Shown here piece by piece: positions 5-29,242 of a stretch of DNA of 64,000 nt (within the stretch, counting starts at the first letter, position 1; each line of letters begins with the position of its first letter). Source of the stretch: Clostridiaceae bacterium (lineage in GTDB: Bacteria; Bacillota; Clostridia; Acetivibrionales; DUMC01); the NCBI GenBank assembly GCA_012840075.1, contig DUMC01000151.1, forward strand, positions 1 to 64,000. The letters run 5' to 3'. Both the position numbers and the translations under genes were made by a program. The notes beneath the pieces are model-generated. The model searched no databases. It saw only the letters and a list, made by a program, of their open reading frames with translations, and was not told the origin of the DNA.

Positions 5-1027
5 ATGATGATGGGGGGAACGACTAAAAACAGCGGGATAGTAATGAGCAGCAGAATAAGGCTCGCCAGAAATTTAAATGAATATCCCTTTCCAATAAAG
101 ATGAATAATGCACAAGCAGGAGAAATCATAAACAAAGTAAGAAAAATAATTTCCGAATCTGAAATGGAAGAACTTAAGAATTCCCTTTTTGTTCACATGC
201 AGGATTTGGGTGATATTGATAAACAGATGTTGGTAGAAAAACATCTCATTAGCCCTGATCTTGCGGAAAACAAAAAGGATAGCGCAGCCATTATAACCCG
301 GGATGAGAGAATCAGCATAATGATCAATGAAGAAGATCATTTAAGAATACAAGTTATATTTCATGGCTTGAAATTAGCTGATGCTCTCAAGATTGGTAAT
401 AGAATTGATGATTTGATTGCGAAAAAAGCAAATTATGCTTTCAGCAGTAATTATGGTTATCTAACATGTTGCCCTACCAATATTGGGACAGGTTTGAGAG
501 CATCGGTTATGATGCACCTTCCTGCGTTGGTTATGACCGGGTATATAAGGAATATACTGGAAGTATGCAGCAAACTTAATATGGCAGTTAGAGGAATTTA
601 CGGTGAACATAGCAGTGCATTAGGCAATGTATTTCAGGTTTCAAACCAGGTTACTTTAGGACAGACTGAAGAAGAAATAGTAACGGGTATTACTAATGCA
701 GCAACACAAATTATAGAGCAGGAAGCTGCCGTAAGAATTGAATTGTATAACCAAAATTCTGTAACGTTTGAAGATAAGATTTGGCGTTCTTTTGGATTAC
801 TTACTAATGCCAGGGTGCTTTCTACAGAGGAAAGCTTAAATTTGATTTCCGATGTTAGGTTAGGAATAGATATGGGAATAATTAAAGATATAAATATGGA
901 AAAAATTGACCAAATTATGCTTCTAATACAACCTGCATCATTACAAAAATTTGTAGGCAGACAACTTACTCCTGTTGAAAGGGATGTTAAGAGAGCAGAA
1001 TTAATAAGAAAAAAGCTTTTTGAATAA
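5..1027 (+). CDS. mcsB: Protein arginine kinase McsB (probably 5'-truncated by window edge)
   Basis: Translation has IVMSSRIRLARNLNEYPFP and the guanido-kinase-like pattern of McsB; directly upstream of clpC; frame is open to the window start. Confidence 0.93.
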   Translation: MMMGGTTKNSGIVMSSRIRLARNLNEYPFPIKMNNAQAGEIINKVRKIISESEMEELKNSLFVHMQDLGDIDKQMLVEKHLISPDLAENKKDSAAIITRDERISIMINEEDHLRIQVIFHGLKLADALKIGNRIDDLIAKKANYAFSSNYGYLTCCPTNIGTGLRASVMMHLPALVMTGYIRNILEVCSKLNMAVRGIYGEHSSALGNVFQVSNQVTLGQTEEEIVTGITNAATQIIEQEAAVRIELYNQNSVTFEDKIWRSFGLLTNARVLSTEESLNLISDVRLGIDMGIIKDINMEKIDQIMLLIQPASLQKFVGRQLTPVERDVKRAELIRKKLFE

Positions 1028-28086: not shown

Positions 28087-28258
28087 TACTATTTACAGGT
28101 CGGTTTTAGTATCATTTGCTAATTAATGGGGATGATAATTAATGGGAATCATTAGCTAATTTATTTTGCTAAACGTTAAGCTGAACCTAGCCAAAAATGA
28201 AAGCTATTGAATGTTTTCAAAATCCAAGCTGTTGGAGGTTTCTTATATATGGGTTATA

Positions 28259-28302
28259 AACAGGAGTAATTTGTACAAGGTGTCGTACAAATTACTCCTG
28301 TT
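28259..28302. repeat. 18-bp-arm perfect inverted repeat
   Basis: aacaggagtaatttgtac-8 nt-gtacaaattactcctgtt. Confidence 0.88.
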
Positions 28303-28385
28303 TAATTGACAAAATTCTTTATTTTATGTACAATATATTAATAGAATGACCCATCTTTTGCACAATATACCGTACAAAATAATGC

Positions 28386-28416
28386 ACATTACCATATAAC
28401 AATTATATGGTAATGT
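28386..28416. repeat. 13-bp-arm perfect palindrome
   Basis: acattaccatata-acaat-tatatggtaatgt. Confidence 0.85.
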
Positions 28417-28498
28417 AAAATATGGTGCTTAATATGAAATTTTCATAATTTACAATATAATTTCCATTGCGTAATAAGTATAAGGGAGGCAATCTATC

Positions 28499-29242
28499 AT
28501 GTTGGTTCCTGCCAGCAAAGTGAGAAATAATTTTAGCAAATACTTAAAACAAGTTTCGGGAGAAAACAAGGAAATAATTATCACAAAAAACAATGTAAAA
28601 GTGGCAAGGTTGGTGCCTTATATAACTGACCTCGACAAGTATTTTACTATACGTGAAAATGCCGTTGACTATAATTATAACCACAGAAAGGTTTCATACG
28701 AAGAATTCATGGAAATTTACGAAAACAGCAATGCCAGGATGGAATACATAAACGGAGAGATATTTCTTTTAAGTTCTCCAAGTGTTTTTCATCAGGCAGT
28801 ACTAGGAGATTTGTACACAATTTTTAAGGAGTATTTTAAAAAGGGGAAGTGCAGAGTTTTTACGGCACCATTTGACGTACATTTCAGGAAAACGGATATA
28901 GATGTTCCTGATGTAATGCAGCCTGATTTACTTGTAATATGTGACATTAAGAATAATATTAATGAAAAAGGCAAGTATATGGGAACACCTACGTTGACAC
29001 TTGAAATAGTATCTCCCAACACAAAAAGAAAGGACATGGTTTTAAAACTTAATACCTACATGAGGTCCGGAGTAGCCGAATATTGGATTGTGGAACCGGA
29101 GAACCGAAGAATTACAATATATAATTTTATTAATTATGAAATTGATAAGAACGAGGTTTATAAAGCGGGAGAAATAGCCAAATCCATAATCTTTGAAAGA
29201 CTTGAAATTGATGTTGGTTATTTATTTGAACAAGGATTTTAA
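28499..29242 (+). CDS. Phd/YefM-type antitoxin domain fused to Uma2-family (DUF820) endonuclease
   Basis: N-term MLVPASKVRNNFSKYLKQVSGENKEIIITKNNVKVARLVP is Phd/YefM-like; C-term YEEFMEIYENSNARMEYINGEI...VMQPDLLVI...LEIVSPNTKRKDMVLKLNTYMRSGVAEYWIVEPE is Uma2 PD-(D/E)XK. Confidence 0.87.
   Translation: MLVPASKVRNNFSKYLKQVSGENKEIIITKNNVKVARLVPYITDLDKYFTIRENAVDYNYNHRKVSYEEFMEIYENSNARMEYINGEIFLLSSPSVFHQAVLGDLYTIFKEYFKKGKCRVFTAPFDVHFRKTDIDVPDVMQPDLLVICDIKNNINEKGKYMGTPTLTLEIVSPNTKRKDMVLKLNTYMRSGVAEYWIVEPENRRITIYNFINYEIDKNEVYKAGEIAKSIIFERLEIDVGYLFEQGF

Follow-up and report, generated by a model that had tools for sequence, protein, structure and literature searches.

The gene at 28499..29242 (plus strand) of the window, the whole 64,000-nucleotide stretch of DNA that was analysed, encodes a 247-residue protein in which a Phd/YefM DNA-binding domain precedes a Uma2 domain. 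The domain and structure predictions, together with the promoter sequences of related genes, make it quite probable that this is a one-gene, autorepressed Uma2 nuclease, in which the antitoxin domain would supply operator binding rather than toxin neutralisation. The N-terminal domain would dimerise, the dimer would bind an array of short sites over its own promoter, and this binding would hold expression of the fusion gene low, with the C-terminal PD-(D/E)XK-type domain, a predicted nuclease, carried on a flexible linker.

Domain architecture of the fusion protein

The open reading frame, whose ATG is preceded by AGGGAGG, had been proposed in a sequence-only reading to join a Phd/YefM domain in-frame to a complete Uma2 domain, with profile searches of the two halves as the check; Pfam, NCBIfam, AlphaFold2 and Foldseek all confirm this architecture. 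Residues 3-41 (28505..28621, plus strand) significantly match the PhdYeFM_antitox profile of Pfam (E=7.1e-9; score 35.7 bits, cut-off 29.8), the NCBIfam model phd_fam matches the protein with E=2.4e-8, and residues 1-64 searched alone give Phd at 5e-10. Residues 68-227 (28700..29179, plus strand) match the PD-(D/E)XK-like nuclease family Uma2 (PF05685; E=8.9e-28; 97.4 bits against a curated cut-off of 27).

Modelled with AlphaFold2 from 58 sequences, the protein reaches a mean pLDDT of 89.8. The model contains a folded Phd domain of beta-alpha-alpha-beta-beta topology (residues 1-40) and a folded Uma2 domain, separated by a linker that is predicted to be disordered (residues 48-59, 28640..28675, plus strand; pLDDT below 50). 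With Foldseek, the first 40 residues match the Phd/YefM-family antitoxins 9g12, 6jqy, 2odk, 7v6w and 4zlx, and the matches include the P1 Phd N-domain and a YefM-YoeB-DNA complex. These matches have an rmsd of approximately 0.7-1.7 Å and a probability of 1.00, with E-values of only 0.03-0.2 because the domain is small. The C-terminal part matches the Uma2 structures 6okh (E=1e-15), 9y1l, 3ot2 and 1wdj.

The aligned N-terminal residues cover positions 4-42 of the 74 in the Pfam profile. Positions 43-74, where antitoxins have their toxin-binding tail, find no Pfam match in the fusion protein; the Phd part corresponds to the DNA-binding half of an antitoxin and not to a complete one. The protein shares its N-terminal DNA-binding domain with the antitoxins of YefM-YoeB, Axe-Txe and Phd-Doc but differs from them in having neither a toxin-binding tail nor a partner toxin; the C-terminal toxin-neutralising segment is replaced by the disordered linker and the Uma2 nuclease domain. 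K14 and Y15 of the Phd part are invariant in the fusions compared, and 75/78 keep E53, which lies in the linker region.

For the Uma2 family (COG4636, DUF820), an H-PD-EXX-K active site was proposed previously (PMC551604). The corresponding predicted residues of the fusion protein, H98, D143, E169 and K183, are invariant in 78/78 fusions, and by these residues the Uma2 domain looks catalytically intact. Both the fold (1wdj, 3ot2, 6okh, 9y1l) and the active-site residues are common to the fusion protein and the family, as is the presence of several copies per genome. The Uma2 members described in that study were not reported with antitoxin domains (the words "fusion" and "antitoxin" are absent from the paper), whereas here a predicted operator-binding domain is attached and promoter arrays are present.

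Putative operator array at the promoter

Five centres of the motif that characterises the class of this gene (class I, see below) lie upstream of it, at 28275, 28287, 28330, 28362 and 28374, within a putative operator array at 28272..28388 that also holds a weaker site (GCACA, first base 28384). This cluster is the densest of its motif in the 64 kb: every other 115-bp stretch contains at most two centres, the only motif pairs in the window spaced by 12 bp are 28275/28287 and 28362/28374, and none of 2000 shuffles reaches the array. Inside it lies a promoter-like TTGACA-17-TACAAT (28306..28334, plus strand), identified by consensus match only (11/12 bases), and its -10 element overlaps the site at 28330.

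Residues R9 and K30 of the fusion protein presumably correspond to R10 and R31 of YefM, and both YefM residues are necessary for the protein to bind DNA (PMC4803016). In the operators of YefM and Axe, palindromes with a TGTACA core are spaced by 12 bp across the promoter (PMC7730913, PMC4803016), and the paired GTAC-core sites at this spacing (PMC7730913) resemble the arrangement at the window gene.

Two inverted repeats flank the promoter-like sequence. A perfect 20-bp repeat with an 8-nt loop (28257..28304) contains the first two GTAC sites, which form its inner ends, and it could be half of the operator, the terminator of the upstream gene, or both. The other, a 21-bp repeat (86%) with a 3-nt loop in the presumed leader (28379..28423), is terminator-like on the minus strand only. 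Two features of the window gene speak against autorepression: its sites lie at -125 to -224 from the start, as opposed to -33 to -100 in most relatives, and the N-domain of its protein (ASKVRNN) is divergent inside its own class.

Class-specific motifs upstream of related genes

Reading of the upstream regions of the fusion genes revealed, after the fact, two motif signatures that follow the type of N-terminal domain. Class II, the larger class, typically has the N-domain STExQNNFGKYL and carries TAGCTA: the 72 upstream regions contain 141 occurrences compared with 7.3 in shuffles, and at least one occurrence is present in 65 of the 72 genes. Class I, to which the window gene belongs, carries [CT]G[TCA]AC[GA]A, with 44 occurrences upstream of 20 genes compared with 4.75 in shuffles; two to three of its genes have no site under the pattern used, which also counts against autorepression. 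These counts are string matches on both strands, with shuffles counted likewise, so that one palindromic site may count twice, and they are inflated by the relatedness of the genes. However, the proteins compared are often only approximately 40% identical, and unconstrained upstream DNA should therefore not have stayed alike. The motifs do not cross between the classes, as TAGCTA is absent from the 20 class I regions and the class I motif is not enriched in class II (6 observed, 7.0 expected). Neither motif occurs upstream of nine control genes (eight solo Uma2 genes and one gene in which Uma2 carries a ribbon-helix-helix domain).

The sites are also regularly placed. Neighbouring class II sites are most commonly spaced by 9 bp (37 pairs, in a first-pass set of 65), and TAGCTA is most commonly located 5 bp after the -10 hexamer in the 59 class II genes with a promoter-like match, a number obtained with a scan that is lenient in AT-rich DNA. 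Class I sites recur at approximately 33, 55, 77 and 100 nt upstream of the start, which corresponds to steps of 22 bp.

Among 17 new genes outside the original sample, 11/14 class II and 3/3 class I genes fit as labelled. Relabelling of L191, L192 and L194 from class II to class I on the basis of their N-termini (GKFLD or GKYID variants) gives 11/11 class II genes with TAGCTA and none with the class I motif, and 6/6 class I genes with the class I motif and without TAGCTA; this relabelling was made after the table had been seen, and the improved figures should be weighed accordingly. From the sequences, each fusion class appears to have its own operator-like array, which is new here; no paper joining "prevent-host-death" with TAGCTA was found in the literature collection searched.

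QNN in the N-domain pairs with TAGCTA in 59/61 cases, and K-x-N (x not N) pairs with the class I motif or with none. A specificity switch at a single residue was rejected: KNN also pairs with TAGCTA, and there is therefore no simple residue code. A wider regulon of TAGCTA arrays in this genome was likewise rejected, with 13 places at one mismatch or fewer compared with 15 for the reversed control; two of these places overlap at the promoter of a class II paralogue, and the sole exact match falls inside a coding frame.

The same genome also holds a ribbon-helix-helix sister gene (L151, G000:C127:80100-81400, gene 60-851, minus strand), in which a CopG-type domain is fused to Uma2. Its promoter contains two near-perfect palindromes of the type ATACAAA-N-TTTGTAT, and similar palindromic sites are found at its relatives in two other genomes (L202 in G002 and L203 in G030). 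Where the DNA-binding domain differs, the promoter palindrome thus differs too, in support of the idea that the fused domain serves promoter binding; the ribbon-helix-helix domain would do the same operator job in this sister copy.

Distribution and gene neighbourhood

The fusion is a recurrent design and not a one-off. Seven Uma2 open reading frames were found in this genome, of which six carry Phd and one the ribbon-helix-helix domain at the N-terminus. A scan of genome contigs yielded 80 relatives from Clostridia, Bacilli, Spirochaetes and others, nearly all of them full-length fusions, and the architecture is kept across distant lineages at 36-58% identity. The survey across genomes that the sequence-only reading had suggested was performed on 299 genomes drawn evenly from the phylum. 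The fusion profile has a match in 140 of them, and full-length Phd-Uma2 proteins are present in at least 39 of the 298 other genomes, among the matches listed. Many other matches in the survey begin at approximately position 45-60, that is, they are Uma2 alone. The plasmid and phage collections contain 37 and 1 matching records, respectively, none of which covers 80% or more of the query.

By sequence reading, the gene upstream of the fusion encodes a sensor kinase, and the downstream genes encode CarD-like, PIN/TRAM-like and IspD proteins, in agreement with the earlier statement that no partner toxin frame is adjacent. Twelve relatives keep the CarD gene and have no Uma2 gene upstream of it wherever that side is readable, several of their contigs stopping just upstream of CarD; the fusion gene looks accessory. 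Pfam reveals no recurrent partner among 134 neighbouring frames at 80 loci, where the commonest families (ABC transporter, acetyltransferase and Uma2) account for three to four frames each, and the 25 neighbour families listed include no RelE-, Doc- or PIN-type toxin. A two-gene type II toxin-antitoxin operon was rejected, as neither an adjacent toxin nor a recurrent neighbour was found.

The Uma2 half, from residue 61, matches PDC-S03 of PADLOC (3.1e-56), a candidate single-gene defence system that is alike in this half. Counted as raw hits, the PADLOC matches of the neighbouring genes consist largely of generic ATPases, together with Uma2 itself, and no recurrent defence neighbourhood is apparent among them. 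The biological role may be defensive, selfish or housekeeping.

Mobile cassette ends were considered and rejected, because the homology between L002 and L003 extends past the gene into an upstream gene. Two Uma2 gene ends in one other genome (L207 and L208, contigs C107 and C242 of G002) lie at contig ends and are 97% identical over 456 bp; this likeness suggests recent duplicates that broke the assembly. Tandem Uma2 genes occur at L201 (G314), L146 (G002), L020 and L044, where a Phd-Uma2 gene lies beside a second one or beside a solo Uma2 gene.

Mode of control and alternative explanations

The sequence-only reading had regarded the gene as an autoregulated nuclease whose antitoxin domain gives operator binding or restrains the nuclease. 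The operator-binding part is supported by the class-specific promoter arrays, which are absent from the controls, and these suggest that the fusion protein may switch its own gene off. Restraint of the nuclease gains no support: the toxin-binding part is absent and the linker is predicted to be disordered. For the same two reasons, a one-chain toxin-antitoxin system, in which the Phd part and linker would hold the nuclease in cis until stress releases it, is unlikely. The fusion of both domains in a single chain, the absence of a separate partner and the conserved E53 would fit such a system, and EzeT, likewise a single chain with an antitoxin-type domain and an effector domain, shows that an antitoxin domain can act in cis (PMC4826407). 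However, the domain of EzeT quenches a kinase toxin, whereas the fusion protein keeps the DNA-binding half, and many relatives have a Uma2 domain of similar length without Phd, which indicates that the nuclease is tolerated without such a domain.

If the Phd domain directed cleavage to operator-like sites, whether in invading DNA or at the gene's own copies, it could promote recombination and spread, and a homing-like role for Uma2 was proposed in 2005 (PMC551604). The dispersed copies, several per genome, and the closely similar copies at contig ends in G002 are consistent with this selfish role. It is nevertheless improbable, as the sites are located at promoters, where repression accounts for them, the duplicated DNA of L002/L003 runs beyond the gene without cassette ends, and plasmids and phages have no full-length match. 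An equally improbable elaboration is a self-spreading, self-limiting homing-like unit, in which conditional nicking at its own promoter arrays would lead to gene conversion and gene copying, and the specificity classes would avoid cross-talk. That the fusion is accidental or decayed, and that the upstream sites serve some other regulator, is extremely improbable. In favour of this reading, the Phd match spans only 39 residues and the sites were noticed post hoc; against it, the architecture recurs in distant lineages at the identities given above, K14 and Y15 are invariant, and the motif class tracks the fused domain and disappears without it.

Under autorepression, the nuclease would be bound at the host's own promoter, which makes constant cutting of ordinary double-stranded DNA improbable. 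It is likely that the substrate of the enzyme is structured, modified or foreign, or that its activity is conditional.

Some bacteria have a vastly expanded set of Uma2 proteins. How nucleases of this kind are restrained was a question raised in 2005, in the paper that assigned the Uma2 fold, and their surroundings gave no clue to it (PMC551604). The fusions and their matching promoter arrays provide a testable answer for one branch of the family, namely a built-in operator-binding domain as the control. They also make available two naturally occurring DNA specificities of the small Phd/YefM fold, and they would allow Uma2 action to be assayed by comparing wild type with catalytic mutant.

Variation in other Uma2 genes

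In two paralogues in the same genome (L006 and L007, on contigs C141 and C172), the AP-D and QPD motifs of the Uma2 domain are separated by a hydrophilic insertion of approximately 25-30 residues, which the window protein does not have. In one strain of Thermoanaerobacterium, the Uma2 gene Tsac_2318 contains approximately 20 clustered variants at 36-45% frequency, and this cluster resembles recombination with another copy, not point mutation (PMC6997586).
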